This document shows positions 1 through 23,087 of a DNA stretch of 24,779 nucleotides, in pieces. Made by a program: the position numbers and the translations under genes. Source of the DNA: Chrysophaeum taylorii (Eukaryota; Sar; Pelagophyceae; Pelagomonadales; Pelagomonadaceae); the NCBI GenBank assembly GCA_029834535.1, contig JAQMWT010000169.1:1-24779 (forward strand), written 5' to 3'. Within the stretch, counting starts at the first letter, position 1. Each line of letters begins with the position of its first letter. The notes under the pieces were generated by a model that saw only the letters and a program-made list of their open reading frames with translations, was not told where the DNA came from and ran no database searches.

Positions 1-453
1 ATCTCCGAACCTGCAACCGCAAACCAAGCGTTGGTAACAGCACAAGCACCGCCGGTAGTTGCCGCGGGGATTGATCACCCCCGAAGCTCTTCAAGGCGCT
101 CGAGAGAAGACTAGCACACGTAACGTGCTCCGTACGATCGTCGACGAGATCGTACGCCCGCGTGAAGACGCGCACAACAACAAGAGGGTACCCAGCCGAG
201 ACAACATCTCTCGGTATCACCACCAGTTTGGGAACTGAGTGGCAAAGAAGCTTCCCGACGTGGTCCTGAGCGGAGCGTCGAACGCGGCATACGTGTGAAA
301 AACGTATATTTGCGCGAAATCCGGAGACGAGCATCGACTCGCCCGACAAGCCCGAGGACAAACAAATCGCCGACCACCGGAAAGGAGTGAGCGGAGTCCG
401 AAAAGACGGGCCAAGCCAGAACAGAGGCACTGAAAGAGACAGCGTCAGCAACA
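1..453 (+). other. Retrotransposon leader / 5' untranslated region
   Basis: No coherent coding sequence is visible between the window start and the gag ATG at 454. Small ORFs overlapping it on either strand are low-complexity and look like shadows. The position just before gag suggests the transcribed leader of the element, which would hold the primer-binding site near its start and packaging signals further on. The LTR itself would lie mostly before position 1. Confidence 0.45.
32..46 (+). promoter_or_regulatory. Candidate tRNA primer-binding site
   Basis: The stretch TGGTAACAGCACAAG begins with TGG, the complement of the universal CCA tRNA end. It resembles the methionine-tRNA-type primer sites (TGGTATCAGAGC) used by many LTR elements, with mismatches. 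Its place at the very start of the leader fits. Without the host tRNA set and the LTR end this remains a guess. Confidence 0.3.
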
Positions 454-2646
454 ATGCCGAAGCGACGCATCATACGAGAGGAAGACGTCCCCCCCGACGC
501 CGGGAGAGAAGGGGCGGAAGAAAAAGAGACCCCGCCGACGCAGCCACCCGCGCCGGCGCCGGCCGCCGCACACGAGCCAGGCCGAGAAAACGAAAGACCG
601 GCAGAAGCCGAAGAGAGAAAAGACGAAGAGCCGACGGGCGAGCAGCCGAGCGCCCCGACCACGACTCGAACCGAAACCGCCGATGAGCGCACCGCCGAAA
701 GCTCCCGAGCAGTTCGCGAGCTGCAGGAGATGGTATCGCTGCTCCAAGACCAGCTGCAGCAGCGCAACCGGCAAGATGAAGAGGTGCGAAGCCTGCTGCA
801 AGAGCGGATCCGAATACAAGACGAGGAGATACAGAAGCAGGCACAAGAGCGCGACGAAGAGCGCAGCTTGATCGCCCAAGAAATCGCGGCGCAGATCGAA
901 CAGACGGCGGCGGCTCAACTCGAAACCGCAACCCGTGAGGAGAAGGAAGCCCTTCAGAACGAGCTCCGACGCGCTCGCGAAGACGCGGAGCGCGCTCGCG
1001 AAGACGCGGAGCGCGCTCGCGAAGACGCGGAGCACGCCCGCAAAGACGCGGAGCACGCTCGCGAAGCGGCAGCGGCCGAAATCCAAGATCTTCGGGAGGA
1101 AATGCGCTCGCTAAAGACGCGTCGAGAGCAGCGAGCACAACCACCGCGACCCGAATCGCCTCGAGACTCGAACCACGACGAATCCGACTCCGAGCCGCCG
1201 AGCAGCGAACCGCCGGTCCGACGCGCGGAGCGAGCGAATCGTCCGCGAGCCCACGAGGAGGAGAAGGAACCCACGGAAGCCGACAAGATCATCGCCGCAC
1301 TGGTGAGAGCCGCCACGGGCCAAGGGCCCTCCGCCGCCCTGGCCTCCCGAAGATACGAGGACGCGGCTGCCCCGAGGCACCGACGTCTCAAGCTGGAGAT
1401 GATCAAGCTGGACATCGAGGGCAAAGATCAGCGGCAGTTCGATCACGAGGCCGCCCTCATCGTCGGAGAGTTATCGAAGGACCACTATTCTATTAGCTCG
1501 CTGTCGTTTGGCCTCGCGGACGACGTGCGACAGGCCGTGCTACCAACGTTGGAGGAAGGGCGATTAGCGGCCGAGGCGCTGTGTACCTCGTTCGGCCACC
1601 CCGAGTCGTTCTATCTGCAATTCCACGCCGACAGCCAAACGCCGTACAAGGAACAGATCCGACAGCTTCGCGACGTGAACCTCTCCCACGTCCAGCGGAT
1701 CCTCCAGCAGCTCCGCCAAGCCTGCCGACCTGCGCCTCGACCGGAGGAAGCCTTCCACAAGGTCCGGAACATCACGCAGGCCACCACGCCGAGGAAGGAG
1801 GGCGAATCTTGGGTCCTGACCTACCTCAAGTCGCTGCAGAAGGAGGCTACGGCCTATACCGCGTTGACGGGAACGTCGATGGATAGCATCGAGATGATTC
1901 ACCAAATGATCGCCGGTTTGGCATCGACAAAGCTGCAACAAAAGATTCATATGGCGCGGTGCGACCAACCTAGTCAGTACAACACCTTCTCCGATGTACA
2001 AAGTCTAATCCTCCGGCACGAGATCCAGTTCAACGCGTGGCAGAAGGCGCACCCCGGTAAAACCACCGACCCGCCGCCACGCAACCCGCGCGACCGCAAG
2101 AAACCCGGCGCATACGCGACGCAACAGGAAGAGCCAGAGGTAGACGATGATCCGAGGCCCAGTATGCGAAACAAGGACGCATGGATGCGGAAGATGTGCG
2201 ACTGCGGAAACTACAAGATCGACCATACGCGAAACGCGGATGGTTCCCTCCGATGCCCGCGCCCGAACGCGTACAAGCAAGCGATGAAAGCGCGGCGACG
2301 GCAGGGACAAGAAACCATCCCTTACGGAGCCTGGAAGAGAGACCAGAAAGCATCACGACCCTACGGCGACAGACGACCGCCCGCGAATGCGAACGCCACC
2401 TCCTCGACTCTGGCGTGGTGCAGGTCAACCAGGTCGAAGCGATCGTCGAGCGCATGTTCGCAGCGCGAAACTCCTCGAGCTCGAGCACACAATCCTCGAT
2501 GGACTACGCGGGGTCTTTCTTTGGGCCTCAATCGAGGGACGGAACCGCCGGATGCTCCTTCACCGACGCCACGTCCCTCGGGTCGGCCAGCAGCACCGAC
2601 GGAGAGTTTTTTTAAGTACCGCAGCCGGTTTTCGTGCCCCCAGTGA
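454..2646 (+). CDS. gag: Gag-like protein with N-terminal coiled coil and Cys/His motif
   Basis: The structural Gag protein would assemble the virus-like particle and bind the element RNA in the cytoplasm. The start is the ATG at 454, after which the frame reads 730 codons. Residues 1-90 are charged and Pro/Ala-rich. Residues about 85-225 are a long Glu/Arg/Gln coiled coil, including tandem REDAERA heptads encoded by 21-bp DNA repeats. Residues about 275-560 look like a helical capsid region. A noncanonical zinc-knuckle-like motif follows, with Cys582, Cys584, His591 and Cys601. From about nucleotide 2380 the frame turns basic and Ser/Pro-rich. A coherent continuation lies in the next frame, so the last 85 or so residues are probably out of frame. 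The family call rests on position and composition, not on a recognised signature. Confidence 0.72.
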   Translation: MPKRRIIREEDVPPDAGREGAEEKETPPTQPPAPAPAAAHEPGRENERPAEAEERKDEEPTGEQPSAPTTTRTETADERTAESSRAVRELQEMVSLLQDQLQQRNRQDEEVRSLLQERIRIQDEEIQKQAQERDEERSLIAQEIAAQIEQTAAAQLETATREEKEALQNELRRAREDAERAREDAERAREDAEHARKDAEHAREAAAAEIQDLREEMRSLKTRREQRAQPPRPESPRDSNHDESDSEPPSSEPPVRRAERANRPRAHEEEKEPTEADKIIAALVRAATGQGPSAALASRRYEDAAAPRHRRLKLEMIKLDIEGKDQRQFDHEAALIVGELSKDHYSISSLSFGLADDVRQAVLPTLEEGRLAAEALCTSFGHPESFYLQFHADSQTPYKEQIRQLRDVNLSHVQRILQQLRQACRPAPRPEEAFHKVRNITQATTPRKEGESWVLTYLKSLQKEATAYTALTGTSMDSIEMIHQMIAGLASTKLQQKIHMARCDQPSQYNTFSDVQSLILRHEIQFNAWQKAHPGKTTDPPPRNPRDRKKPGAYATQQEEPEVDDDPRPSMRNKDAWMRKMCDCGNYKIDHTRNADGSLRCPRPNAYKQAMKARRRQGQETIPYGAWKRDQKASRPYGDRRPPANANATSSTLAWCRSTRSKRSSSACSQRETPRARAHNPRWTTRGLSLGLNRGTEPPDAPSPTPRPSGRPAAPTESFFKYRSRFSCPQ
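970..1074 (+). repeat. 21-bp tandem repeats encoding coiled-coil heptads in gag
   Basis: Five consecutive 21-bp units start at 970, 991, 1012, 1033 and 1054. The first three are identical and the last two diverge. Each encodes seven residues of the type ARED-AE-R, exactly one coiled-coil heptad per unit. This suggests the coiled coil was lengthened by slippage or unequal exchange without breaking the frame. Confidence 0.85.
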
Positions 2647-3045
2647 CACCACCGAGCGAACCACCGCCGAAGCCAAGCGTGATGACCGCCCCGGCCGACT
2701 CGACGTTCGCCTCTCCAACTGCTCTCGACGTGGTCCCGGAGGATGAGCTCGACAAAATGCAAGCAGAGATCGCAATCGCACAGGCCAAGCTCACCTCGCT
2801 AGGAGCTCCGCTCGTGCACGAGGAAAATGCCGGACCCCCCGAAGCGGACGTCGATTCGGAGCGAACGGTCAACCCGCGGTCGCTCACCTCCCAGGTGCCC
2901 AATGCCGATCGGCCAGATCCCGGGGAGAACGCGCTATCGCTTTTAGTTGAGTCGAACCTCCGAAACGCCGCCGACCTCGAGCAGAGACGGTACGAGTCGG
3001 ACGCAACATCCTCGGTCGCCAGCGACACCTCCGAAACTTCAAGTT
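2385..3045 (+). pseudogene. Gag-protease linker segment in a shifted frame with an in-frame stop
   Basis: The frame with codons starting at multiples of three reads coherently here. It gives an acidic, partly helical segment (ECERHLLDSGVVQVNQVEA at the start), then Ser-rich and Pro-rich parts such as VPPVTPPSEPPPKPSV. A TAA at 2613-2615, next to a run of seven T, interrupts it; the same style of sequence resumes at once in the same frame. It therefore looks like one polyprotein segment broken by a stop. It joins gag upstream by one frame change (about 2380) and the protease frame downstream by another (about 3035-3065). No enzymatic domain is visible. Confidence 0.55.
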
Positions 3046-3088
3046 CGCACGCCCAGAGGATGTTGCCAGTCGAATCAGCGCCGCCACC

Positions 3089-4603
3089 ATGCACGTCCCG
3101 CACGAGTCGGACACGGATGTCTCCGACCTCGTCGAGAACGTGTCCGACAGCGACGACGACTCCGACACCGACGCTAACCGAACGGGATCACCGGAGGTAA
3201 ATCCGCAAGCCGCCGTCAATGACGAACTCACCGCCCTCATCGACGATGACACCGATTCGGACGGCGGCAGTTCGGACGAACGGGAAAGTCAACCCGGAGA
3301 ACTGTTCCCTGCCCTATTCAGTCATCCGCGCGGACCCGCAACCGCCACAGCAATAACAGATGCCCTTCTCCAAGCATTCGCGGACCCGCACCGACAAAAC
3401 CCGACGGATGCGGACGACGACGCGTCCGACAGAAACGACCATGACGACGACGGCAGCACGCCCGAGAAAGATATCAACCCCGGTTCAATGTCGAGGCCGA
3501 CGCCGCACTCTCCCCAAGGGGGTACCCGCCGCGGACCCGGCCGCGATATCGGCAGCGGAAACAGCGAGTCGCCTCCAGTCGAGGGACCCGCCCAGGAACC
3601 GAACACGCCGGAACCGGAAGGATCGGAACAAACAGCCGAAACCGACAAGGAACCCCCGCGCAAAGGATCGGAACAAACAGCCGAAACCGACAGGGGACCC
3701 CCGCGCAAAGCTCGGGAAGAGAGAAGCCTCGAGGAGGAAGTTCACGGATCGAAAGCGTCCCGCACGCGCTTAAGAAGCGCCAGGTTAAGACCTCCGCGCC
3801 GAAGGTCGAGGAGGGGGACGAGAGTCAAGCGGCTCTGGAACAAGAAGAGTCCCGAGCGAACCGACCCCCCGGCACGAAACCGAAATAAGACCCCAGACGG
3901 TGGCAGAGTCCTCCCTCTTCAAAACGAAGATAAGGCAATCGACAAGGAGCCCGAGCCACCCGAAGAACGAAAGGAGCCTCGGAAAGACGAGGAACGAAGA
4001 TTTCCCGACCTTCCGGTCCGAGAGCGCGAAGAAAGAGGCCGTCGGTTACAACGGAGAATCCAAGAGCTACCCGCCGATCCGCGAGCGAGCCGACAGAGCC
4101 GGTGGTCGATAGCCCACCGATTCTTCGCGGGACGCGCGCACGTATCGATGCCGATGGCAGGAACGGAGGACGAAGCCATGCGCATGCACTCCTCTTTTGC
4201 CCCCATCAACACCGAAACGATCGGCAGAGACCTGCGCATCCTTCATTGCTGGGAAGCCGGTAGCCAGACGTTCATGCCCATCCACGTGTTCAATAAGCCA
4301 GGCGACTCATCGTATGCCGCGGTGATCGGTGTGGACGGAATGGCCGACGTCACCTACATCTGTCGCGACCTCGCTCGCCTAATGCGAAGGCGAGGGATGT
4401 TGCTGGACAGCGGCAAGCTGCCTTTCGAGCGAACGCTCTTCGGATCGGGAAAGAATACGACCTCGATTTCAGAGTGGATCGCCCTGCGAGTATCCGTTTC
4501 GGACGAAATGGCCGTGCCGGTAGTCGCAATCGTGGCAGACACCAATAAACAGTTTCTGCTGGGAGCCCGCGACATTCGAGCCTTGGGCGCTATCGTGGAT
4601 TAA
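3089..4603 (+). CDS. Acidic linker plus retropepsin-like aspartic protease
   Basis: This would be the protease part of the polyprotein, which matures Gag and Pol inside the particle. Residues 1-330 are a very acidic then very charged, repeat-bearing linker. Residues about 365-504 look like a retropepsin. The segment AVIGVDGMADVTYI lines up with the family's first active-site strand (Asp-Ser/Thr-Gly-Ala, then hydrophobics), placing the putative catalytic Asp at residue 416. FLLGARDIRALGAIVD, near the end, fits the conserved flap-side strand and helix. The usual DSG/DTG triad reads DGM here. ATG 3089 has a strong Kozak context, but the frame stays coherent upstream (ARPEDVASRISAAT), so it need not be the start. 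A TAA ends it at 4601, although similar sequence continues. Confidence 0.6.
   Translation: MHVPHESDTDVSDLVENVSDSDDDSDTDANRTGSPEVNPQAAVNDELTALIDDDTDSDGGSSDERESQPGELFPALFSHPRGPATATAITDALLQAFADPHRQNPTDADDDASDRNDHDDDGSTPEKDINPGSMSRPTPHSPQGGTRRGPGRDIGSGNSESPPVEGPAQEPNTPEPEGSEQTAETDKEPPRKGSEQTAETDRGPPRKAREERSLEEEVHGSKASRTRLRSARLRPPRRRSRRGTRVKRLWNKKSPERTDPPARNRNKTPDGGRVLPLQNEDKAIDKEPEPPEERKEPRKDEERRFPDLPVREREERGRRLQRRIQELPADPRASRQSRWSIAHRFFAGRAHVSMPMAGTEDEAMRMHSSFAPINTETIGRDLRILHCWEAGSQTFMPIHVFNKPGDSSYAAVIGVDGMADVTYICRDLARLMRRRGMLLDSGKLPFERTLFGSGKNTTSISEWIALRVSVSDEMAVPVVAIVADTNKQFLLGARDIRALGAIVD
3620..3709 (+). repeat. 45-bp direct tandem duplication
   Basis: Two adjacent 45-bp copies (3620-3664 and 3665-3709) encode GSEQTAETDKEPPRK and GSEQTAETDRGPPRK. 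The unit is a multiple of three and keeps the frame. The near identity points to a recent duplication in the disordered linker ahead of the protease. Confidence 0.9.
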
Positions 4604-4993
4604 CCCCCAGACCGAATTTCCTTCTCGCGAACCCAAACAGTCTTCCAGATGAAGGAGCTCCCGTACGCGGGGGAGATCGTTCGGTCACCCGCCATTCTCT
4701 ATCGGGCAGCCTAGGAAACACACCCCATCGTAGCGCCAATTTGCGGTTTCCGGGGGCAAGCGCTGGCGCAGAGTCGGAGTCAAAGTGGCAAGAGAGCTCT
4801 GCCACCGCTGCTCGCTGAAGAGGATCTCCTCTCGCCGCCTCCTCAGCGAGCTTCGGCAGCCGTAACCTTGGCCGAGGACCCATCTATGCCGAGCAACGAC
4901 ACGAAAACGTCCGCGCCCGAGATCCGAGCGTTCGCGACCGGCTCCCAGCGCATCGACCCCGGTCGAACCCACAACATCCCGGTCAAGCGCTGA
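4604..4993 (+). pseudogene. Protease-to-Pol linker, same frame as the protease but past two stops
   Basis: Directly after the TAA at 4601-4603 the protease frame goes on coherently (RISFSRTQTVFQMKELPYAG) to a TAG at 4712-4714. It then runs open to a TGA at 4991-4993, ending in a segment (QRIDPGRTHNIPVK) that resembles the beta-rich connector found between protease and reverse transcriptase in Gypsy polyproteins. The Pol frame is open from 4819 and continues this connector (ALSQALKPGEAFVATAP) from about 4985. A frame change is therefore needed close to the short direct repeat CAAGCGCTGA at 4984 and 4996. Confidence 0.5.
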
Positions 4994-5040
4994 GCCAAGC
5001 GCTGAAGCCCGGAGAAGCCTTCGTCGCCACCGCGCCTAGC

Positions 5041-8000
5041 GTGGAGCACCTCGGTGTCGTCGCCGGAACCTGCTCGACGTGTGACCGCTCCAACCCAACC
5101 GCGGCCGCAGTGGCCGTGTCGTCGAGGGACGACACGCCGATGTCGATCATCCCAGGTCAAGAGCTCGCGCGGGGGGAAATCGTCAACTGCCAAGAAGAAG
5201 ATCAGGTGACAGCCCCATTGCCAAGCGCCGACCTCGGAAACCCGCACAGAAGCGAGCACGAGGGCACGGCCTCCTTTACGGTCTCGATCACCAGCTACCC
5301 AACTCCAGACCCCGGAGAAACAGACGGTCAAGCACTTCGAACATCATCAATCAAGCCGCGACTGCAAGCCCCACAGACGCAAGAAGCGCTGAAGTCTCGA
5401 ACCGCTGAACAAGCGATCATCGACAAGCACCAGGCGCTCTCCTGGATCCCGGAGAACGTGACGCCCGTAGTAATGTTCTTCGGCGGGATTGGAGGAGGCA
5501 CCCAGGGTATATACCGGAGCAACGAATGGTTCGGAACCGCGTACAAGGTCGTGCTCGTCATCGACGCATCCGACACCGCCAAAGAAATCCATGAGAGAAA
5601 TTTTCCAGGAATACCTGTCGTCCAGCACACCCTCGGCGGTCGGTATGACAGGGTCCTTTCATTGGTCAAGGGTTACTTGCATGAAAGCCTATGGCCCACG
5701 GCCCTTTTCGTTGGCACACCACCATGCGTCGATTCCTCCCTGTGCAACCTTACGGCCCGCGACGCTGGGAAAGGAGTCTCCGCAACCAATTGGACCATCA
5801 AGCTCTTTCAGCTCTCCGGAGTAGGACGCTGGATCATCGAGCAGGAACCTTCCATTCGCTCGAGAATCACGCTGAGGCAAGGGTTCATCACCGTCGTCGA
5901 CCTGTGGACGACGACGCCGGACCTCATGAGCACCCGTCGACGCATGATCATCACGAGCTGGCCTCTCGAGCTCATTCGACGTCCCAAAACGTGCGGCACT
6001 ATTCAAGATACCTTCGCCGCCAAACTCGGACTCGACCCTGCGCAGCCTCTCATCCAGCGCAACAACTTTGGATGCATCCGAGAGGCCACAGCACCGATAC
6101 ACACCATCACGCGGAACGGAGTGCGAACAGGACCCACGCCATCGGACACCAAAGCACTCAAAATAGAGATGCTCGCGGAGGCTCTCACAATGCCGAGCGA
6201 TCTCGCATGGGGTCACCTCACAGTCACGGACCGAATGAAGCATCTAGCGGCCGTGATACCCCCGTCTTCCATGGCATACATCGCCCTTCACGCACACAAC
6301 GCACTCCCGCCCCCGCTCCGCAACGTTGGAATCGCGCGCCCGAACGTAGTCGTACCCACCGACAGACCCTCTGAAACATACATCATCGAGCGCGTCCCCT
6401 CCGCCCCCGTCCGCGTGGGAACCACCGCACCCGAGCCCCGAAGCGCCCTCGTGAACGTCTCAACTCGCGCAATTCACTGGGTGCCGAACCGCGACCTCCA
6501 GAAATGGCAACCACCGGACCTTTCGTTGACCGCTCCGAAACCCGCTGCATCAGGGACGATGCACTCATCTTACCAAGGGGGTACCCGCGCGAGCAAAAAC
6601 GATGCAACCTCGAAGGGCAAACCAAGGGAGGGAAAACCAACCAAGGAACCGACGAGCGACAAAACCAAAGAGCTCGCCCGGTTCAAGTACGAGGAATGGT
6701 TTGACGTGCCATGGAAAAACGTACTCCGGGACGAAGACGGAGCACCGCTACCGCAACAGCCCAACCATCTGAAAGGGAACGCGGCCATGGTCGTCAAGAA
6801 CCCCACGAAAGAAGAAGTAGACAAAGCCGTCGAGGAGCTAGGCATCCCGAATAACCCTCATCTGGACGAAGACGCCAAACTCATGTTGGCACATTGCGTT
6901 CGATACTCCTGGGCGTTCTTCGACCCCATCATGAGACCCGTGGACTCTCGGCCGGTATCCCTCCGATTCAAAGACGCGGACCCAAAGCCCATCAAGATGT
7001 CGCCGTACCGCTTGACTCCCGCCAAGATCGAATGTCTCCGACAGCAGATCGCCGAATGGTGCAGAGACGGAGTCATCAGACCGGCCGAATCCCCCTGGGG
7101 ATTCCCGGTCCTGATGCTCCCGAAGAAAGGTGCAGAGCTCGGAACATCTAACGCCTTCCGCGCGGCTGTCGACTTACGCCAGCTCAACGAACAGTTGGTC
7201 GACAACAGCTGGCCGAATGTACCGCAGGAGGACGCCCTAGCGTTCCTGGCCGGCCGAAGGTTCCGGACATCGATCGACATTCGGTGGGGGTACCACAACC
7301 TTCGACTGGACCCGCAGGCACAGGACGCCGTGACAATGGTCAGCCCGCTCGGAGCCCACAGCTTTCTCCGACTGCCCCTGGGAGTGAAGACCGCAGGCGC
7401 CCTCTTCTGCAAGCAGATGACAGCCGACCTCGCTAAATGGATGTACCGAGATCTGGTCAGCTTCATCGACGACATCATCATGGGAACGGACAACGTCCAC
7501 GATCATTTGCAGTGCCTAGTCGAAGTCCTCTCCCACTTGGCCGCCAAAGGATACAGTGGCCGGACAGCCAAATTCCACTTGCTCCAAGACGAAATCGAGT
7601 TCCTGGGTCATATCTCGACCCCCGACGGATTAAAGCCTAACCCCAAAACGTCGGAGGCACTACGAAAGATGCCGATTCCTGGGACTCTGCCGAAAACCTC
7701 CCCGAAGACGCAAATCCGCTCATTCATCGGGATGAGCAACTACTGCCGGAGATACATCAAGGACTACTCCAAGATCGCGGAGCCCTTGCGACGCCTGACG
7801 TTAGAGGAAGTGCCGTTCAAATGGACGTCAGAGTGCCAAAAGGCATGGGACACCATCATCGACGCACTAGCGGACTCCCGGGGAGTGTACCATCCAGATT
7901 ACGACCTCCCCTTCCACATCCGAACCGATGCCTCCAAAGATGGTCTCGGAGCTTATCTCTTCCGAATCGTCCAAGTTCAGGACGGCAAGGGTCACACCGG

Positions 8001-10389
8001 TCGTGAGGAACGAGTCATCGAGTACTGGAGCCGAGCGGTGCCCAAAGAGATGCGTAATTATGAGCCGCGCCGTCTGGAGCTCCTGGGGGTGATCCTGTCT
8101 CTCGAACACTTCCGCCCATTCATCGAAGGCCACCGAACCGTCCTCGAAACCGACCACCGGAATCTGACCTTCCTCCGGAACACAACCCACTCCACCGGGC
8201 AGCTCGCCCGATGGGCAATGCGGCTGGCCAATTTCGACCCCGAACTCGGTTACAAGCCTGGCAAGTCCACGGGGATGAGCATCCCCGACTGCCTATCGAG
8301 GAATCCGATCGACCACGTCATCGAGACCGACGAATTCGGAGAGCCGCTCAATCACGCGTACTTGGTCGTGCAAGAGCTGCCGCTCCCCGCCGGCGAAGCC
8401 GGATGTCACGTCATTCTCAACTTGGCGCAGACAGAGATACCCGAGGACCTCGAGGACCCTCCGGACGATCCGATGGGTTACGCCGCCTCCCACGCCACGC
8501 AACATCGCAAGAAAGTGGCCCTGAGGTCGCGCAAGCCGCCGTTGCAAACCGACGTCGGGCTACAAAAGGAATTCGTCGACAAAATTCCTGACAACATCTC
8601 CCTGGAAGAGGTTGCTGAGGCCCAAAAGGATGACCCTCTATGCGATAGTATCCGCACCGGGATGAACCAGAGCGATGCTCGCCGCCGATTCGGAGCCAAC
8701 GTCCGATATGACGTATGGAAGGGAGTTTTGTACCGATATGAAATCGACCTCCGACCGGTGATCGTAGCACCCTCGGCGTTGCGAGAGAGGATCATGCGCA
8801 TCTACCACAGTTCGCCCCTGGGAGGACATCTCGGACGCGATAGCACCGTCAACGCGATCGCCGAACGGTTCTGGTGGCCGCGCATGTCCCACCAGGTTGG
8901 AGTCTTCGTCAACGCCTGCCTGGTTTGTCAAAAATCGCGAACCCCGGAGCCAAAGCGAAAAGGGATGCTCCAGCAGCCGATATACGACGGAGACGGCGCC
9001 GTTCTGTGCATGGACCTTTTCGGACCTCTGCCGAGCGCCGGCAAGTCCACGTACATCCTCGTGATGTTCGACTCGTTCTCGCACTATCTGGTCTTGGACG
9101 TCATAAACACCAAGCACGCCGACGCCATCTTAGAATCCTTCGTGCGAAACATCCTCCTTCAAGGATTCCTCCCGCGGATGATCCTCACCGACAATGGTCG
9201 CGAGTTCGTCAACCGGTTGCTACGGGCCTTCCTCGTGGAATTCGACGTCCGGTACAGGAAAACGATTCCGTACCACGCCCAAGCGAACCCCGCGGAGCGA
9301 GTCAATCGGTTCCTCAAGGCGTTCCTCCGAGCCTGCCTCGAAGGTCGCAGCGTCACCGACTGGCCGGCCTTCGTCCGGTACGTGTCGTTCTGCTACAACC
9401 GAAAGTTCATTCCCGGCACGCAAATCTCCCCATTCGTGTTGCGTCTGAACCGGCAGCCGATGTTGCCCACAGACTACACCTTGTTAGTTCAACCGGATCC
9501 TGTTCTGCCGCGACCCCGATCATACGCGCTCCTGGAGATCAAGCAAAACCTCCAGTACTACTCAAAGGTCGTCGCAAAAGCACATGAGCAGGCCAAGAAA
9601 TCGCAGAAGCTGGCGTACGACGCCGAGCACGTCGACGTCGAATACAACGTCAACTCACATGTGCTGCTGTACATTCCGCAGTCCCAAAACAAGTTGCGAC
9701 CGGAATGGCGTGGCCCTTTCCTCATCACCGAGCGCCTATCACCCGTCTCGTACAAGATCCGGTCGGTTTACGGAGCCCCCGAAGAGCGAATCGTATCGGT
9801 CCAACAGATCGCCCCGGTATCTATGCCTCCCGCGCTCGACGCCACGATCCGTCGTCCGAGCCCCGGGTTCCGCGACGATTACGAGCGCGGCAAGCTCGTC
9901 ATTTTCCGCATCCCGTCGGCCCGGGACCCCGATTGGCGCAAGAAGCTTTATGTCGCCGAGGTTTTCGAGGATTATGATGATCTTCAAGACAGAGTCGCGC
10001 TCCATTTTTACTCCGACTTGGGCCCGCGCGACGACCCATCGTATTTCGACCCGACCTCGCCACTTGAAGGTCGCACGCTGAGCCCGGAATTCAAGACGGC
10101 ACTCGGTCGCAGCTTCACTCGCCCCGAGAAGCTGACGCCTCAGTGCACCCCTTGCGTAACCGACTTCGCCCCGGACGAGATCGACGTCCTGGTTCCCCGA
10201 TTCAAGCTTCAGGGTAAATCGATTCCTCCCCCGGTCGTCCAGCGAGTCAAAGATATCCTCGCGCATCGCGCGCGCCAAGAACAAGAACAAATACAAGCTC
10301 AACAACGCGCTCACCAGACGCACACTCAAGTCCCGTCCCCCGACGGTCCGCATCGAAGCTCGCTTCAATCGCGCCCCCGCCGTCGCTGA
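5041..10389 (+). CDS. pol: Pol polyprotein: C5 methyltransferase, reverse transcriptase, RNase H, integrase
   Basis: This copies the element RNA into DNA and inserts it into host chromatin; uniquely it also carries a DNA methyltransferase. The listed start is a GTG. The frame is open from 4819 and is probably entered by frameshift; the first in-frame ATG is near 5143. Domains in residue order: methyltransferase about 138-430; reverse transcriptase about 650-900, with FIDD at 808-811 as the YxDD box; RNase H with Asp963, Glu1013, Asp1038 and Asp1083; integrase zinc site His1256, His1263, Cys1293 and Cys1296; integrase catalytic Asp1325, Asp1384 and Glu1419; a GPY/F-type motif (GPF 1558-1560). 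An extra module spans about 1610-1700, followed by a Gln/Arg-rich tail. All visible catalytic residues of the RT, RNase H and integrase are present. At 1782 codons it is far longer than a usual Gypsy Pol, because of the added domains. Confidence 0.93.
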   Translation: MEHLGVVAGTCSTCDRSNPTAAAVAVSSRDDTPMSIIPGQELARGEIVNCQEEDQVTAPLPSADLGNPHRSEHEGTASFTVSITSYPTPDPGETDGQALRTSSIKPRLQAPQTQEALKSRTAEQAIIDKHQALSWIPENVTPVVMFFGGIGGGTQGIYRSNEWFGTAYKVVLVIDASDTAKEIHERNFPGIPVVQHTLGGRYDRVLSLVKGYLHESLWPTALFVGTPPCVDSSLCNLTARDAGKGVSATNWTIKLFQLSGVGRWIIEQEPSIRSRITLRQGFITVVDLWTTTPDLMSTRRRMIITSWPLELIRRPKTCGTIQDTFAAKLGLDPAQPLIQRNNFGCIREATAPIHTITRNGVRTGPTPSDTKALKIEMLAEALTMPSDLAWGHLTVTDRMKHLAAVIPPSSMAYIALHAHNALPPPLRNVGIARPNVVVPTDRPSETYIIERVPSAPVRVGTTAPEPRSALVNVSTRAIHWVPNRDLQKWQPPDLSLTAPKPAASGTMHSSYQGGTRASKNDATSKGKPREGKPTKEPTSDKTKELARFKYEEWFDVPWKNVLRDEDGAPLPQQPNHLKGNAAMVVKNPTKEEVDKAVEELGIPNNPHLDEDAKLMLAHCVRYSWAFFDPIMRPVDSRPVSLRFKDADPKPIKMSPYRLTPAKIECLRQQIAEWCRDGVIRPAESPWGFPVLMLPKKGAELGTSNAFRAAVDLRQLNEQLVDNSWPNVPQEDALAFLAGRRFRTSIDIRWGYHNLRLDPQAQDAVTMVSPLGAHSFLRLPLGVKTAGALFCKQMTADLAKWMYRDLVSFIDDIIMGTDNVHDHLQCLVEVLSHLAAKGYSGRTAKFHLLQDEIEFLGHISTPDGLKPNPKTSEALRKMPIPGTLPKTSPKTQIRSFIGMSNYCRRYIKDYSKIAEPLRRLTLEEVPFKWTSECQKAWDTIIDALADSRGVYHPDYDLPFHIRTDASKDGLGAYLFRIVQVQDGKGHTGREERVIEYWSRAVPKEMRNYEPRRLELLGVILSLEHFRPFIEGHRTVLETDHRNLTFLRNTTHSTGQLARWAMRLANFDPELGYKPGKSTGMSIPDCLSRNPIDHVIETDEFGEPLNHAYLVVQELPLPAGEAGCHVILNLAQTEIPEDLEDPPDDPMGYAASHATQHRKKVALRSRKPPLQTDVGLQKEFVDKIPDNISLEEVAEAQKDDPLCDSIRTGMNQSDARRRFGANVRYDVWKGVLYRYEIDLRPVIVAPSALRERIMRIYHSSPLGGHLGRDSTVNAIAERFWWPRMSHQVGVFVNACLVCQKSRTPEPKRKGMLQQPIYDGDGAVLCMDLFGPLPSAGKSTYILVMFDSFSHYLVLDVINTKHADAILESFVRNILLQGFLPRMILTDNGREFVNRLLRAFLVEFDVRYRKTIPYHAQANPAERVNRFLKAFLRACLEGRSVTDWPAFVRYVSFCYNRKFIPGTQISPFVLRLNRQPMLPTDYTLLVQPDPVLPRPRSYALLEIKQNLQYYSKVVAKAHEQAKKSQKLAYDAEHVDVEYNVNSHVLLYIPQSQNKLRPEWRGPFLITERLSPVSYKIRSVYGAPEERIVSVQQIAPVSMPPALDATIRRPSPGFRDDYERGKLVIFRIPSARDPDWRKKLYVAEVFEDYDDLQDRVALHFYSDLGPRDDPSYFDPTSPLEGRTLSPEFKTALGRSFTRPEKLTPQCTPCVTDFAPDEIDVLVPRFKLQGKSIPPPVVQRVKDILAHRARQEQEQIQAQQRAHQTHTQVPSPDGPHRSSLQSRPRRR
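5452..6330 (+). other. C5-cytosine DNA methyltransferase domain inside Pol
   Basis: This domain would transfer a methyl group from S-adenosylmethionine to carbon 5 of cytosine. Visible motifs, in family order: I (FFGGIGG, residues 146-152); an acidic residue after the next strand (Asp175, motif II); IV (GTPPCVDSS, catalytic Cys229); a motif VI position reading EQE (267-269) instead of ENV; VIII (STRRRMII, 297-304, replacing QxRxR); a target-recognition-like segment ending APIHTIT (351-357); a motif X-like end reading HNAL (419-422) where GNAV is usual. Order and spacing fit a complete single-domain enzyme of about 290 residues, between the protease connector and the reverse transcriptase. The changes in VI and X leave activity uncertain. 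Confidence 0.8.
9868..10140 (+). other. Post-integrase module of Pol, possibly Tudor/chromo-like
   Basis: After the GPF motif a separate compact segment (residues about 1610-1700) begins with GKLVIFRIPS and continues with LYVAEVFEDYDD and RVALHFYSDLG. This is a pattern of short beta strands with aromatics. Gypsy integrases often end in a chromodomain that directs insertion to marked chromatin. This segment is in that position but lacks an obvious chromodomain signature and looks more like a Tudor/Agenet-type barrel. Function is inferred from position only. Confidence 0.4.
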
Positions 10390-10403
10390 GGACAGCTCCT
10401 ATC

Positions 10404-10415
10404 AAAGCAGGGGAG
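10404..10415 (+). promoter_or_regulatory. Candidate polypurine tract
   Basis: AAAGCAGGGGAG lies 15 bp after the Pol stop and just before a TG dinucleotide that would start the 3' LTR. This is where plus-strand DNA priming occurs in LTR elements. One C interrupts the purines. Confidence 0.45.
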
Positions 10416-10418
10416 TCC

Positions 10419-10529
10419 TGTGGCGGTAACCCTCACACCGCCATCCTTACCCCTTAGTTCTATCGAGTTCTCTACCCCACTTCCCGTCTACTGGACTTTT
10501 TACTGGACTCTACTTCAACCCCTATCTAA
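10419..10529 (+). repeat. Candidate truncated 3' LTR
   Basis: The stretch starts TGTGGCGGTAAC and contains a 7-bp stem (TGGCGGT at 10421 with ACCGCCA at 10437). It then gives way to the minisatellite at about 10530. Only about 110 bp remain, and the 5' LTR is not in the window, so the assignment rests on the TG start, the preceding purine tract and the position after Pol. Confidence 0.4.
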
Positions 10530-10530
10530 C

Positions 10531-10690
10531 AAGTGCAGGCCAGTAAGTTCACCTACTCCCAATCTCTAACCCCAGTAAGTTCACCTGGTCCCAGTAAGTT
10601 CACCTGGTCCCAATCTCTAACCCCAGCAAATTCGGCGTAAACCCAATCTCTAACCCCAGTAAGTTGTCGTAAACCCACACCCACTCTTCT
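10531..10690. repeat. Two-monomer minisatellite, left edge of the Helitron-derived field
   Basis: The array begins AAGTGCAGGCCAGTAAG. It repeats a 19-bp monomer (CCAGTAAGTTCACCTGGTC-type) and a 32-bp monomer that adds CCAATCTCTAACC, together with variants containing GGCGTAAACCC. The same monomers flank every helicase remnant in this window. No coding potential is seen. Confidence 0.8.
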
Positions 10691-10723
10691 TGGAGATCGT
10701 CGCTCTCACCCCTGCCAATCTAC

Positions 10724-11300
10724 GTCTACGGCGACCTCGCAGACTATTTCCACGACCCGCGGCGGCTCTTTCATCGCGCCATTCTCACGCCCCGTCGAAA
10801 CCATATTGTCGATGCTGACAACGCGCGCATGACCGCGGCCTTTTTTTCCCGGAGACGAGGCGTCGGAGTTCTTTTCGGCCGACTAGGTTGGGTCGGAAGA
10901 CGACGCCTCGCTCTCAAGAGTCGAGTTTTGAACTCCCTGACAACCAACGGCATGCTGACTTTGATCGCGAGCTTAAAGTCTTCGCAACCTCGACCCGTCG
11001 CACGGCCACTGCAACGGTACCAGATACATGATCGATCGTGTCGTTGTCACCGAGGCTCCTCCAACCTGTATCCCTTAAGGCCCGCCGACGCCAAACGATC
11101 ACCAAGAGCCAGGGCCAGACGCCCCGCGAGGTCGGCATCCTCTTGGCGAAGCCCGTCTTCTGCCACGTCCAGCTCTACGTGGCTCTCTGTCGATCGGCAA
11201 CCTCGAGGATATCCTCTTCTTGGTCGACGACTCCACCCTACTCCACACGTGCTGCGCAATACCGATAAGCCCCCTCCCGGCGTCTACACGCGCACTATAG
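10724..11300 (+). pseudogene. Helitron helicase C-terminal remnant, copy 1
   Basis: Reading through frame changes recovers the C-terminal end of a Helitron Pif1-type helicase. The pieces are YGDLADYFHDP and AILTPR, an SAD segment before a TAG, EFLNSLTTNG in a shifted frame, NLDPSHGHCNGTRYMIDRVV, then KSQGQT (11104-11121) and PVFCHVQLYVALCRS, the last two being helicase motifs V/VI. At least four frameshifts and one stop make it noncoding. Homology is to the part of RepHel that closes the helicase core; the Rep nuclease and Walker motifs are absent. Its left edge is sharp at GTCTACGG, where copies 2, 4 and 5 continue further upstream. Confidence 0.78.
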
Positions 11301-11665
11301 GTTAACTTACTGGGACCAGGTGAACTTACTGGAACCAGGTGAACTTACTGGGGTTAGAGATTGGGACTAGGTAAATTTAGTGACCAGGTGAACTTACTGA
11401 GACCAATTGTGAACTTACTGGGGCTTTTAGAGTAAACTCAAAGTTTAGCGGCGTGTGCGGATCAAAGCAGCTTAGATTGGCGGGGGTGAGAGCGACGAGC
11501 TCGAAGGAGAGTGGGGTGAGTGGGTGTGGGTTTACGCCGAACTAAAGAGATTGGGTTTACGCCGAATTTACTGGGGTTAGAGATTGGGACTAGGTGAACT
11601 TAACGGGGTGAAAATGCTGGGGTTAGAGATTGGGACTAGGTGAACTTACTGGCCAGCACTTATCG
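11301..11665. repeat. Minisatellite block downstream of helicase remnant 1
   Basis: This holds alternating 19-bp (GGTGAACTTACTGGGACCA) and 32-bp (adding GGGTTAGAGATTGGGACTA) monomers. A non-repetitive stretch at about 11420-11545 (including ATCAAAGCAGCTTAGATTGG) recurs beside copies 2 to 5. The end reads ACTTACTGGCCAGCACTT, a variant of the border seen elsewhere as ACTGGCCTGCACTTGT. No gene is seen. Confidence 0.8.
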
Positions 11666-11987
11666 ACATTTAAAGACAAACAGACAAACAGACAGACAAA
11701 CATCTGTCGATTAGTAGTAAGGACGCACGTATTGCAACGCCACCAGGCGTTCCCCTTCTTCAGATCGACTAATCTCGACCATAAATCATTTCACGAGTCT
11801 TCGGATTGAAGCTCGTGGACAGTTTGAAGGTTGCTCGACAGGAAGGAAGCGCTCCTCAACCCGCTCGGCACCCTCGAGACGTTGAGGGCACCGTCGAAGC
11901 AGGGTAAGAAGTCGGCGCGCATAATCCTTTCCTGCCGCAATGCTCCCCACACACACCCCCCTCTTAGCAGTCGACATTTACAGACAG

Positions 11988-12018
<31 letters not shown>

Positions 12019-12068
12019 GATCCCCACACACACCCCCTCTTAGCAGTCGACATTTATTAGTAGTTAGG
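11666..12068. repeat. CAGA microsatellites and CTTAGCAGTCGACATTTA repeats
   Basis: A CAGA/CAAA tract (about 11674-11700) and a longer CAGA tract (about 11985-12018) flank an otherwise unique stretch. The motif CCCCTCTTAGCAGTCGACAT appears twice (near 11957 and 12036). Short ORFs here exist on both strands only because the microsatellite lacks stops. I find no supported gene. Confidence 0.7.
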
Positions 12069-12389
12069 AACAAGTGCAGGCCAGTAAGTTCACCTAGTCC
12101 CAATCTCTAACCCCAGTAAGTTCACCTGGTCCCAGTAAGTTTCGTATAAGTTCACCTGGTCAGTAAGTTCACCTAGCTCACACCAACTCCTTTGAGCTCG
12201 TCGCTCTCGCCTCCGCCAATCTAAGCTGCTTTGATCCGCACGCGCCGCCAGCCTTTGAGTTTACTCTAAAAACCCTTTACTCTAAAAACCCCAGCATGTT
12301 CACCTGGTCCCAGTTTCACCTGGTCACTCTGTTCACCTAGTCCCAATCTCAAACCCCAGTAAGTTCACGTGGTCCCAGTAAGTTCACTT
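12069..12389. repeat. Minisatellite block between the border and helicase remnant 2
   Basis: The block starts with ACAAGTGCAGGCCAGTAAG and holds 19- and 32-bp monomers in the opposite orientation to those at 11301-11665. It also holds the GATCCGCACGCGCCGCCAG stretch and TTTACTCTAAAAACCCC. It mirrors 13878-14196 in the right arm. Confidence 0.75.
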
Positions 12390-12979
12390 ATAGTGCGCGT
12401 GTAGACACCGGGAGGGGGCTTATCGGTATTGCGCAGCACGTGTGGGGTAGGGTGGAGTCGTCGACCCAGATGAGTATATCCTCGGGGATGCCGATCGACA
12501 GAGAGCCACGTAGAGCTGGACGTGGCAGAAGACGGGCTTCGCCAAGAGGATGCCGACCTCGCGGGGCGTCTGGCCCTGGCTCTTGGTGATCGTTTGGCGT
12601 CGGCGGGCCTTAAGGGATACAGGTTGGAGGAGCCTCGGTGACAACGACACGATCGATCATGTATCTGGTACCGTTGCAGTGGCCGTGCGACGGGTCGAGG
12701 TTGCGAAGACTTTAAGCTCGCGATCAAAGTCAGCATGCCGTTGGTTGTCAGGGAGTTCAAAACTCGACTCTTGAGAGCGAGGCGTCGTCTTCCGACCCAA
12801 CCTAGTCGGCCGAAAAGAACTCCGACGCCTCGTCTCCGGGAAAAAAAGGCCGCGGTCATGCGCGCGTTGTCAGCATCGACAACATGGTTTCGACGGGGCG
12901 TGAGAATGGCGCGATGAAAGAGCCGCCGCGGGTCGTGGAAATAGTCTGCGAGGTCGCCGTAGACGGCTTGGAGGATCAC
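12390..12979 (-). pseudogene. Helitron helicase C-terminal remnant, copy 2
   Basis: This has the same helicase end as copy 1, on the minus strand. It extends further upstream (ILQAVYGDLADYFHDPRR) and is preceded by a conserved flank with CTCGCGCCTACCTGA repeats. KSQGQT and PVFCHVQLYVALCRS are retained, with the same internal frameshifts. A 204-codon minus-strand ORF across it joins several wrong frames and is not a functional protein. Confidence 0.78.
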
Positions 12980-13300
12980 TGTCTGGCTCTCGCGCCTACC
13001 TGACCCTTACTCTCGCGCCTACCCGATACTTACCCTAAATCGAGGGACAAACAGACAAACAGACAAACAAACATCTGTCGATTAGTAGTTAAGACAAGTG
13101 CAGGCCAGTAAGTTCGCCAGTAAGTTCACCTGGTCCCAATCTCTAACCCCAGTAAGTTCACCTGGTCCCAGTAAGTTCACCTGGTCCCAATCTCTAACCC
13201 CAGCAAATTCGGCGTAAACCCAATCTCTAACCCCAGTAAGTTGTCGTAAACCCACACCCACTCTTCTTGGAGATCGTCGCTCTCACCCCTGCCAATCTAC
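12965..13300. repeat. Spacer between the inverted-repeat arms
   Basis: This is 336 bp with no counterpart on the other side of the symmetry axis (13132.5). Its left half carries the copy-2 upstream flank and a CAAA/CAGA tract (about 13041-13072) followed by ATCTGTCGATTAGTAGTT. Its right half is minisatellite monomers of the kind found before copy 1. It may therefore be the junction of two neighbouring repeat units. Confidence 0.75.
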
Positions 13301-13878
13301 GTCTACGGCGACCTCGCAGACTATTTCCACGACCCGCGGCGGCTCTTTCATCGCGCCATTCTCACGCCCCGTCGAAACCATATTGTCGATGCTGACAACG
13401 CGCGCATGACCGCGGCCTTTTTTTCCCGGAGACGAGGCGTCGGAGTTCTTTTCGGCCGACTAGGTTGGGTCGGAAGACGACGCCTCGCTCTCAAGAGTCG
13501 AGTTTTGAACTCCCTGACAACCAACGGCATGCTGACTTTGATCGCGAGCTTAAAGTCTTCGCAACCTCGACCCGTCGCACGGCCACTGCAACGGTACCAG
13601 ATACATGATCGATCGTGTCGTTGTCACCGAGGCTCCTCCAACCTGTATCGCTTAAGGCCCGCCTACGCCAAACGATCAACAAGAGCCAGGGCCAGACGCC
13701 CCGCGAGGTCGGCGTCCTCTTTCCCAAGCCCGTCTTCTGCCACGTCCAGCTCTACGTGGCTCTCTGTCGATCGGCATCCCCGAGGATATACTCATCTGGG
13801 TCGACGACTCCACCCTACCCCACACGTGCTGCGCAATACCGATAAGCCCCCTCCCGGTGTCTACACGCGCACTATAAG
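13301..13878 (+). pseudogene. Helitron helicase C-terminal remnant, copy 3
   Basis: A plus-strand copy, truncated at the same GTCTACGG edge as copy 1. It matches copy 2 closely, including the CATCCCCGAGGATATACTCA segment that differs from copies 1, 4 and 5. A short interval (about 13650-13730) reads differently: INKSQGQT and a VGVLF-PKPVFC segment instead of ITKSQGQT and VGILLAKPVFC. This variant partly matches copy 5. It is frameshifted like the other copies. Confidence 0.78.
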
Positions 13879-14246
13879 TGAACTTACTGGGACCACGTGA
13901 ACTTACTGGGGTTTGAGATTGGGACTAGGTGAACAGAGTGACCAGGTGAAACTGGGACCAGGTGAACATGCTGGGGTTTTTAGAGTAAAGGGTTTTTAGA
14001 GTAAACTCAAAGGCTGGCGGCGCGTGCGGATCAAAGCAGCTTAGATTGGCGGAGGCGAGAGCGACGAGCTCAAAGGAGTTGGTGTGAGCTAGGTGAACTT
14101 ACTGACCAGGTGAACTTATACGAAACTTACTGGGACCAGGTGAACTTACTGGGGTTAGAGATTGGGACTAGGTGAACTTACTGGCCTGCACTTGTTCCTA
14201 ACTACTAATAAATGTCGACTGCTAAGAGGGGGTGTGTGTGGGGATC

Positions 14247-14277
<31 letters not shown>

Positions 14278-14965
14278 CTGTCTGTAAATGTCGACTGCTA
14301 AGAGGGGGGTGTGTGTGGGGAGCATTGCGGCAGGAAAGGATTATGCGCGCCGACTTCTTACCCTGCTTCGACGGTGCCCTCAACGTCTCGAGGGTGCCGA
14401 GCGGGTTGAGGAGCGCTTCCTTCCTGTCGAGCAACCTTCAAACTGTCCACGAGCTTCAATCCGAAGACTCGTGAAATGATTTATGGTCGAGATTAGTCGA
14501 TCTGAAGAAGGGGAACGCCTGGTGGCGTTGCAATACGTGCGTCCTTACTACTAATCGACAGATGTTTGTCTGTCTGTTTGTCTGTTTGTCTTTAAATGTC
14601 GATAAGTGCTGGCCAGTAAGTTCACCTAGTCCCAATCTCTAACCCCAGCATTTTCACCCCGTTAAGTTCACCTAGTCCCAATCTCTAACCCCAGTAAATT
14701 CGGCGTAAACCCAATCTCTTTAGTTCGGCGTAAACCCACACCCACTCACCCCACTCTCCTTCGAGCTCGTCGCTCTCACCCCCGCCAATCTAAGCTGCTT
14801 TGATCCGCACACGCCGCTAAACTTTGAGTTTACTCTAAAAGCCCCAGTAAGTTCACAATTGGTCTCAGTAAGTTCACCTGGTCACTAAATTTACCTAGTC
14901 CCAATCTCTAACCCCAGTAAGTTCACCTGGTTCCAGTAAGTTCACCTGGTCCCAGTAAGTTAACC
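13879..14965. repeat. Repeat interior of the right arm
   Basis: This is the mirror image of 11300-12386. It carries minisatellite blocks at about 13879-13985, 14090-14196, 14605-14740 and 14845-14965, CAGA/TCTG tracts at about 14247-14281 and 14562-14592, and two GTCGACTGCTAAGAGGGG motifs (14214 and 14290). ORFs on both strands are microsatellite artefacts. No gene is seen. Confidence 0.75.
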
Positions 14966-15556
14966 TATAGTGCGCGTGTAGACGCCGGGAGGGGGCTTAT
15001 CGGTATTGCGAAGCACGTGTGGAGTAGGGTGGAGTCGTCGACCAAGAAGAGGATATCCTCGAGGTTGCCGATCGACAGAGAGCCACGTAGAGCTGGACGT
15101 GGCAGAAGACGGGCTTCGCCAAGAGGATGCCGACCTCGCGGGGCGTCTGGCCCTGGCTCTTGGTGATCGTTTGGCGTCGGCGGGCCTTAAGGGATACAGG
15201 TTGGAGGAGCCTCGGTGACAACGACACGATCGATCATGTATCTGGTACCGTTGCAGTGGCCGTGCGACGGGTCGAGGTTGCGAAGACTTTAAGCTCGCGA
15301 TCAAAGTCAGCATGCCGTTGGTTGTCAGGGAGTTCAAAACTCGACTCTTGAGAGCGAGGCGTCGTCTTCCGACCCAACCTAGTCGGCCGAAAAGAACTCC
15401 GACGCCTCGTCTCCGGGAAAAAAAGGCCGCGGTCATGCGCGCGTTGTCAGCATCGACAACATCGTTTCGACGGGGCGTGAGAATGGCGCGCTGAAAGAGC
15501 CGCCGCGGGTCGTGGAAATAGTCTGCGAGGTCGCCGTAGACGGCTTGGAGGATCAC
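14966..15556 (-). pseudogene. Helitron helicase C-terminal remnant, copy 4
   Basis: A minus-strand copy with the longer upstream end (ILQAVYGDLADYFHDPRR). It is followed outward by the CTCGCGCCTACCTGA repeats (15568-15601) and a CAGA tract. The KSQGQT and QLYVALCRS motifs are visible. It is almost identical to copy 1 where the arms overlap, and has the same frameshifts. Confidence 0.78.
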
Positions 15557-15680: not shown

Positions 15681-15705
15681 AAGATAAAGAAAGAAAAGCA
15701 CAACG

Positions 15706-18269: not shown

Positions 18270-18355
18270 AGGGTCGGATAAGAAAGCTCAAAACTAGGCC
18301 CTAGCCTACATTTCGAACACCAAACGAGAAACCCTCATTCAAAAGTGGATTGTCT

Positions 18356-18380
18356 CAGGCTATGTTTCAAACATAGCCTG
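18356..18380. promoter_or_regulatory. Perfect 12-bp inverted repeat upstream of the transposase gene
   Basis: CAGGCTATGTTT, one base, AAACATAGCCTG. It lies about 90 bp inside the transposon end and 28 bp before the ATG at 18408. A second small palindrome (CTAGGCCCTAG) lies at 18294-18304. Both could be transposase-binding or promoter elements; only the symmetry is observed. Confidence 0.5.
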
Positions 18381-18407
18381 CAAAATCACAAAATCGGCGT
18401 TCCGCCC

Positions 18408-22941: not shown

Positions 22942-23087
22942 TTACGCCGAACTTACTGGGGTTAGAGATTGGGTTTACACCGAATTTGCTGGGGTTAGAG
23001 ATTGGGACTAGGTGAACTTAACGGGAACAGGTGAACTTGCTGGGGTTAGAGATTGGGACTAGGTGAACTTACTGGCCTGCACTTGTT
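22942..23087. repeat. Minisatellite downstream of helicase remnant 5, right part
   Basis: TTACGCCGAACTTACTGG begins further monomers (32-bp type, plus GGTTTACACCGAATTTGCT). The array ends at ACTGGCCTGCACTTGT, the same border seen reversed at 10530, 12069 and 13093. Confidence 0.8.

Follow-up and report, generated by a model that had tools for sequence, protein, structure and literature searches.

A C5-methyltransferase-like domain carried by a Gypsy retrotransposon lineage of the pelagophyte Chrysophaeum taylorii

The Gypsy element in the window

The stretch of DNA analysed here (the window, 24,779 bases) is the complete 24.8-kb contig C169 of the 70.8-Mb genome assembly of Chrysophaeum taylorii, a pelagophyte and as such a stramenopile. 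The genome was published as 71 Mbp in 702 contigs, and within the main text of that paper the words 'retrotransposon' and 'transposable' are absent (PMC10366177). The following features of a Gypsy element were located in the window, with LTR and element boundaries set by blastn against sister copies:

1..11939, + strand: Gypsy element as held by the contig, with a foreign insertion at 10524-11721 (compared with sister copies C405 and C104, which have both LTRs)
391..2646, + strand: Gag-like open frame with no Pfam match, labelled from the open frame and its position in the element
2951..4603, + strand: frame with a terminal protease-like stretch (LLGARDIRALGAIVD) and a stop at its end; no protease family of Pfam matches
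4819..10389, + strand: Pol open frame of 1856 codons, in the order methyltransferase, linker, reverse transcriptase (RT), RNase H, integrase
7120..7614, + strand: RVT_1 reverse transcriptase (Pfam E 3.3e-12)
7897..8235, + strand: RT_RNaseH, RNase H (Pfam E 2.4e-24)
8770..9276, + strand: integrase zinc finger H2C2 and core rve (Pfam E 5.9e-19 and 8.3e-11)
10419..10523, + strand: 3′ LTR, part one, beginning TGTGGCGG
11722..11939, + strand: 3′ LTR, part two, beyond the insertion, ending CCTGCCGCA

The RVT_1, RNase H, H2C2 and rve domains each exceed their own Pfam cut-off, and the RT-RNase H-integrase order of Ty3/Gypsy Pol is present in the window frame. The 5′ LTR lies off the contig, ∼37 bases upstream of where the window starts, and the end of the 3′ LTR is included. 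In three sister copies (C405, C104 and C5) the direct LTRs measure ∼324-341 bases, are 97.6-98.2% identical, and begin with TGTGG and end with CCGCA or CCACA (TG...CA); a 5-base target repeat, GTAAG, flanks one of the three (C405), with none at C104 or C5.

The preliminary description had read the methyltransferase as lying in one uninterrupted frame with RT, RNase H and integrase. This stands from the methyltransferase through the integrase, while the protease-like frame is separate. Since stops and a frame change split the protease-side frame from the methyltransferase-RT frame, the window copy is probably no longer intact. A sister copy (L016) reads through where the 2951..4603 frame of the window stops, and in the copy on contig C5 the methyltransferase, RT, RNase H and integrase share a single frame, at least 2806 codons long. 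The protease label itself is our assumption from a motif.

Several further features accompany the element. Within the Gag-like frame, 21-base tandem repeats at 949-1074 code for a charged EDAERAR-type repeat. A palindrome (10723-12965 and 13300-15542; 2243 bases, 99% complementary, 334-base spacer) carries an inverted duplicate of the second half of the 3′ LTR (11722-11939) at 14326-14543, and is either a true inverted duplication or an assembly fold-back. A second high-copy element at 18282-22555 holds an open reading frame of 711 aa (20420-22555) with no Pfam match; this frame has at least 73 genome matches (63 of 626 candidates scored), and since many of these are 97-100% identical, the element has probably spread recently. 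The inverted repeats at 10528-10665 and 22950-23087 may belong to the same element or to its non-autonomous kin. Finally, a frame of 287 codons at 15688-16551 has a weak, below-cut-off likeness to indole-3-glycerol phosphate synthase (E 0.0097).

Identity of the methyltransferase domain

To describe the domain, we counted residues across 39 copies, comprising 13 of the window's own subfamily (subfamily 1, window included) and 26 of a second subfamily (subfamily 2), some of them with stops. The motif names in the window follow the general C5-methyltransferase scheme:

5461..6300, + strand: domain assigned with high confidence to the C5-cytosine methyltransferases, from motifs in 39 copies, PF00145 matches of sister copies and profile comparison
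5476..5496, + strand: motif I (AdoMet binding), FFGGIGG; two glycines checked, each kept in 39/39
5719..5727, + strand: motif IV, PPC, with the catalytic Cys (38/39) and each Pro in 37/39
5839..5847, + strand: motif VI-like EQE, replacing ENV; both Glu in 39/39
5929..5943, + strand: motif VIII-like STRRR (R-x-R); both Arg in 39/39
6103..6114, + strand: motif IX-like TITR; first T and R in 39/39
6256..6264, + strand: motif X-like IPP; last Pro in 39/39

The central claim of the preliminary description, that a C5-methyltransferase is built into a Gypsy Pol frame, is borne out: the motifs lie in order, sister copies match PF00145, and the catalytic residues are kept in 38 or 39 of the 39 copies. 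The Pfam search that it proposed gave a divided result. Taken alone, the window domain matched no Pfam family at E ≤ 1, PF00145 included, and no NCBIfam family, and against the PDB it found no methyltransferase, just two unrelated chains (E 0.28 and 0.62). For this copy by itself, that is the outcome which the preliminary description had named as refuting; the domain is established through its sister copies. When 20 copies were aligned (7 of the window's subfamily and 13 of the second), PF00145 matched 13 of them with a best E of 1e-6, and one copy that is 48% identical to the window (L037) scored 27.1 bits, where the cut-off is 22. The dcm family TIGR00675 weakly matched 14 of the 20 (best 4.9e-4), its curated cut-off of 100.65 bits being unreached among the genome matches listed.

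Profile comparison with 79 Dnmt2-type proteins gave E 2.6e-10 for subfamily 2 and E 3.7e-6 for the window's subfamily, in both cases over motifs I-IV only, and reversed-profile controls gave E 0.05-0.07. The assignment of motifs VI-X is a reading of conserved columns that lie beyond this span of significant profile similarity. The closest PDB structures by profile were Dnmt2-type tRNA methyltransferases at E 0.1-0.2, which is not significant; among the PDB profile matches listed, these were the only methyltransferases, weakly matched, and there was no Dnmt3 chain. A single-sequence structure model of the domain reached a pLDDT of 33, too low to show a fold. The target-recognition region is small: the motif VIII Arg and the motif IX Thr are separated by ∼50 residues.

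LTR elements use tRNA as a primer, and the domain could be a Dnmt2-like m5C enzyme acting on that primer tRNA or on packaged genomic RNA. Such an RNA methyltransferase would fit the Dnmt2-type tRNA enzymes at the top of the profile neighbours, the small target-recognition region and the tRNA priming of LTR elements. However, Dnmt2 was the sole deep family compared and the PDB E-values are 0.1-0.2, and we consider this reading improbable.

A chance motif match was ruled out by the sister copies together with the selection described below. From the sequence evidence, the domain is almost certainly a divergent C5-methyltransferase, and probably an active enzyme. Two protein-database searches returned no relative: with the window Pol region no candidate out of 2016 reached E ≤ 0.001, and with the 20-copy alignment no sequence out of 7997 scored reached E ≤ 1. 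Repeats are commonly masked in annotation and length filters were applied, so these negatives are weak evidence of absence. A recent viral origin is unsupported, with no IMG/VR relative in two scans using few peptide patterns.

Distribution, selection and deleted copies

The methyltransferase domain has at least 119 matches in the genome, partial ones included (119 scored of 929 candidates), and among those listed the window's subfamily is 73-97% identical to the window and the second subfamily 44-48%. The preliminary description had weighed that this copy might be an isolated chimera or a misassembly, and the window does span an entire 24.8-kb contig whose right side carries palindromic repeats. 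Because the domain occurs at least 119 times across the host genome, an isolated chimera is excluded; the LTR-flanked methyltransferase copies and the frame of at least 2806 codons on contig C5 also argue against an assembly chimera or isolated fusion, which is left with a negligible probability. In a search with RT, at least 139 matches were found (139 scored of 1073 candidates), none listed below 79% identity. We then took eight RT copies chosen for having no listed methyltransferase nearby, and all eight carry the methyltransferase upstream, whole or in part (one full-length match, one remnant of 134 residues, one rearranged and five in two pieces). The methyltransferase is a regular component of this Gypsy lineage. 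Two pairs of contigs (C25/C521 and C10/C297) have matches at near-equal coordinates and scores, which suggests uncollapsed haplotypes, so the copy counts may be slightly inflated.

Between the two subfamilies, identity is 82-83% for RT, 82-86% for RNase H and 63-71% for the integrase core, versus 48-51% for the methyltransferase and 33% for the linker, and between two branches of the second subfamily it is 95% for RT versus 82% for the methyltransferase. By these sequence comparisons, the methyltransferase is the faster-evolving domain relative to the adjoining enzymes, with its catalytic residues kept. This is one of the points that would speak for an anti-silencing role, in which the element would remain expressed because the domain misdirects the host's methylation machinery or competes with it: divergence ahead of RT is conflict-like, the linker diverging faster still, and the copies are without a clear methylation footprint. 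Yet a plain competitor needs no full catalytic set and the catalytic residues are kept, and we regard anti-silencing as decidedly unlikely.

The methyltransferase is under purifying selection. Across eight RT-intact copies its pN/pS is 0.23 (0.17-0.31), equal to that of the N-terminal part of RT at 0.23 (0.16-0.33), and median dN/dS is 0.07 in subfamily 2 (248 of 325 pairs, those with dS >0.1) and 0.30 in subfamily 1 (78 pairs). These values bear on whether the domain is an idle spacer or a nucleic-acid-binding domain that performs no catalysis, as might be read from the divergence of its motif X and its motif VI (EQE, not ENV) and from the window copy's want of an individual Pfam match. Low dN/dS, with the Cys kept in 38 of 39 copies and the Glu and two Arg in all 39, argues against an idle domain, which we hold to be very doubtful.

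Close relatives of the window copy include a deleted form that lacks most of Pol downstream of the methyltransferase:

7259..9253, + strand: RT core-to-integrase core block, absent in 12 of 23 further close loci carrying the methyltransferase

These 23 loci all belong to the window's subfamily. RT is retained in 8 of them, including two on near-duplicate contigs; 12 lack the integrase core together with RNase H and the RT core, and 3 could not be judged. A 14-base junction string is identical in 7 of the 12 deleted copies, and in a tree of the RT remnant the 12 deleted and 8 intact sequences fall on opposite sides of a split with a support of 1.000. The deleted copies have moved, as C405 and C104 retain near-identical LTR pairs (97.8% and 97.6%), presumably with enzymes supplied by intact copies.

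Over all 12 deleted copies the pN/pS of the methyltransferase is 0.26 (0.21-0.35) versus 0.68 (0.51-0.97) for the RT remnant. In a five-copy, deleted-only old group (split support 0.999 in the methyltransferase tree), the values are 0.41 (0.29-0.59) versus 0.82 (0.55-1.23), with 95% ranges that overlap slightly, and in three young deleted copies the ranges overlap widely (methyltransferase 0.18-0.57, RT remnant 0.24-3.04). The integrase remnant is also constrained (its pN/pS is 0.30 when all deleted copies are taken and 0.52 for the old group), and this tempers the contrast drawn for the methyltransferase. Trees by region show that methyltransferase segments of deleted and intact copies intermingle, which indicates recombination. 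Because the segment recombines between the two kinds of copy, the argument for a cis role from retention in the lineage deleted for RT, RNase H and integrase core is weakened. Given this recombination and the smaller contrast in the deleted-only group, we no longer read the deleted copies as unambiguous proof of selection in cis.

A second set of methyltransferases lies in a Ty1/Copia family of the same genome. A PF00145 genome search gave at least 57 matches (123 of 474 candidates scored), comprising one Dnmt2, one DNMT5-like gene and 55 that were assigned to the Copia family by position, compared by eye, and the family as a whole has at least 152 matches in the genome, some of them partial (150 of 494 candidates scored). 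Its fullest copy (L071, C96:62000-68500) is one frame of 1801 codons that reads, in order, a protease-like IDGGAS, PF00145 (E 9.8e-8), an integrase core that stays under its cut-off (E 0.0055) and RVT_2 (E 1.3e-17), which places the methyltransferase between the protease-like motif and the integrase. IDGGAS has no Pfam match, and we take it to be protease-like. The Gypsy and Copia methyltransferase profiles did not detect one another (E 0.11-0.55), and the Copia profile reached E 0.002 at most against the Dnmt2 profile. A detectable common origin is rejected on these values and a distant one is possible; since the two profiles miss each other, two separate captures seem likelier than a single one.

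The host also has its own C5-methyltransferase family members, to which the retroelement domain likewise belongs. Its Dnmt2 gene on C634 is CTAYLR_008533 (100% identity over the 326 residues searched), and a DNMT5-like gene on C621 matches PDB 7r76, deposited as Rad8, which is presumably the fungal DNMT5, at E 6.3e-137. Unlike the retroelement domain, both match PF00145 near full length, and both lie outside retroelement frames as far as these were read; neither is evident as its direct source.

The role of the domain and its relation to known systems

Lasting CpG methylation might be expected to leave a deamination footprint on the copies, and we counted private mutations in three copy sets, each of 13. 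At CpG sites, private transitions numbered 27/322, 17/303 and 36/340 (0.084, 0.056 and 0.106), versus 68/884, 86/915 and 61/569 at A/T sites (0.077, 0.094 and 0.107), and no clear transition excess was seen at CpG, CHG or CHH sites. In one copy set CpG exceeds CHH by 1.3x (0.084 versus 0.063), which is small. CpG is over-represented in the copies (1.17-1.27); a value of 1.24 is also found in the window's right part, so this is not special to the element.

The preliminary description had proposed that the element methylates its own new copies, among other purposes for self-silencing, and it is this purpose that the counts weaken, as private CpG transitions are not clearly commoner than those at other sites. 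Its other suggestion, that methylation makes the copies look like host DNA, comes close to the mechanism preferred here. With no clear CpG-deamination footprint, a lasting self-silencing mark is not favoured. Self-silencing or copy-number control would consist of heritable CG methylation laid on the copies and maintained by host DNMT5, and a DNMT5-like gene that could maintain methylation is present in the host. In the 2018 study, a dinoflagellate DIRS Dnmt3 is reported to methylate CG de novo in yeast (PMC5890265). DNMT5-type methylomes may leave scant deamination footprint, and the neighbouring DNA also has a CpG observed/expected of 1.24. However, in all three copy sets private CpG transitions are near or below the A/T rates, and we judge self-silencing unlikely, if the most plausible of the alternatives.

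LTR elements package their enzymes with Gag-Pol. The methyltransferase domain would be made within Gag-Pol and packaged into the virus-like particle, where it would act in cis to methylate nucleic acid of the element itself, the new cDNA being the likeliest target. The mark would be transient, protecting or licensing the cDNA before integration and not serving lasting silencing. That the domain works inside the particle, on nucleic acid of its own element, is suggested by the position in Pol, by Gag-Pol packaging and by retention in the polymerase-less derivatives, and a transient mark is favoured because the copies have no clear CpG transition excess. As an overall explanation, we tentatively prefer a Gypsy-borne C5-methyltransferase that may transiently mark its own cDNA in cis; the transient cis-marking taken by itself we offer with slightly more reserve.

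The genome has, in two LTR superfamilies, mutually undetected C5-methyltransferases that occupy the same slot just 3′ of a protease-like stretch. That two superfamilies carry such a domain, and that it is kept after loss of the polymerase and integrase core, argues for a selectable benefit to the element itself. What this benefit consists of is the question left by the 2018 study (PMC5890265). Because Chrysophaeum was grown in the laboratory and its genome read by long-read sequencing, the methylation of both cDNA and integrated copies is directly measurable.

A farther-reaching idea is that the retroelement methyltransferases (Gypsy and Copia together, >250 matches, partial ones included) could be the host's only de novo cytosine methyltransferases. 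If so, retrotransposons would seed the methylome and the host, whose own detected genes are a Dnmt2 and a DNMT5-like, maintenance-type enzyme, would do no more than copy it. This is very improbable: one paper reports DNMT6 in Pelagophyceae (PMC9998398), and our host gene searches scored part of the candidates and ignored introns.

Retrotransposons that bear DNA methyltransferases are already known, and the 2018 study of de Mendoza et al. describes a retrotransposon DNMT with de novo CG activity in yeast and proposes cDNA methylation (PMC5890265). Among the closest counterparts, KnitGypsy-Dnmt3 of Klebsormidium nitens resembles the present element in having a Gypsy-type Pol with a C5-methyltransferase, conserved catalytic residues, purifying selection and multiple copies (PMC5890265). 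It differs in that its methyltransferase is a Dnmt3 relative and its repeat arrangement DIRS-like (PMC5890265), whereas no Dnmt3 chain was among our PDB profile matches and the C. taylorii copies C405, C104 and C5 have ordinary direct LTRs; the C. taylorii host, moreover, is a stramenopile, and deleted derivatives there keep the methyltransferase. SymbioDIRS-Dnmt3 and SymbioLINE-Dnmt of Symbiodinium are likewise retrotransposon C5-methyltransferases at high copy number, the SymbioLINE enzyme being described as an orphan lineage, but they belong to DIRS and LINE elements, not LTR/Gypsy, in a dinoflagellate host (PMC5890265). A 2025 paper also refers to LTR Copia and DIRS elements that bear a DNMT3, and to LINEs with orphan DNMTs (PMC12344493). 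A C5-methyltransferase in a Copia-type element is thus shared with C. taylorii; the published Copia/DIRS enzymes are described as DNMT3 members, with streptophytes and dinoflagellates named (PMC12344493), whereas the Copia family described here is in a pelagophyte.

Among titles and abstract beginnings, with subscription journals mostly outside this scope, there was no report of the C. taylorii case. The suggestion of the preliminary description that the phenomenon might extend to another lineage holds for a pelagophyte stramenopile, and its alternative of an independent capture in that lineage is likely, because the host lineages are far apart. As far as the literature was searched, the kind of element is known, and what C. 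taylorii adds to it is the lineage, the presence of two methyltransferase-bearing LTR superfamilies in one host, and a deleted lineage that keeps its methyltransferase.
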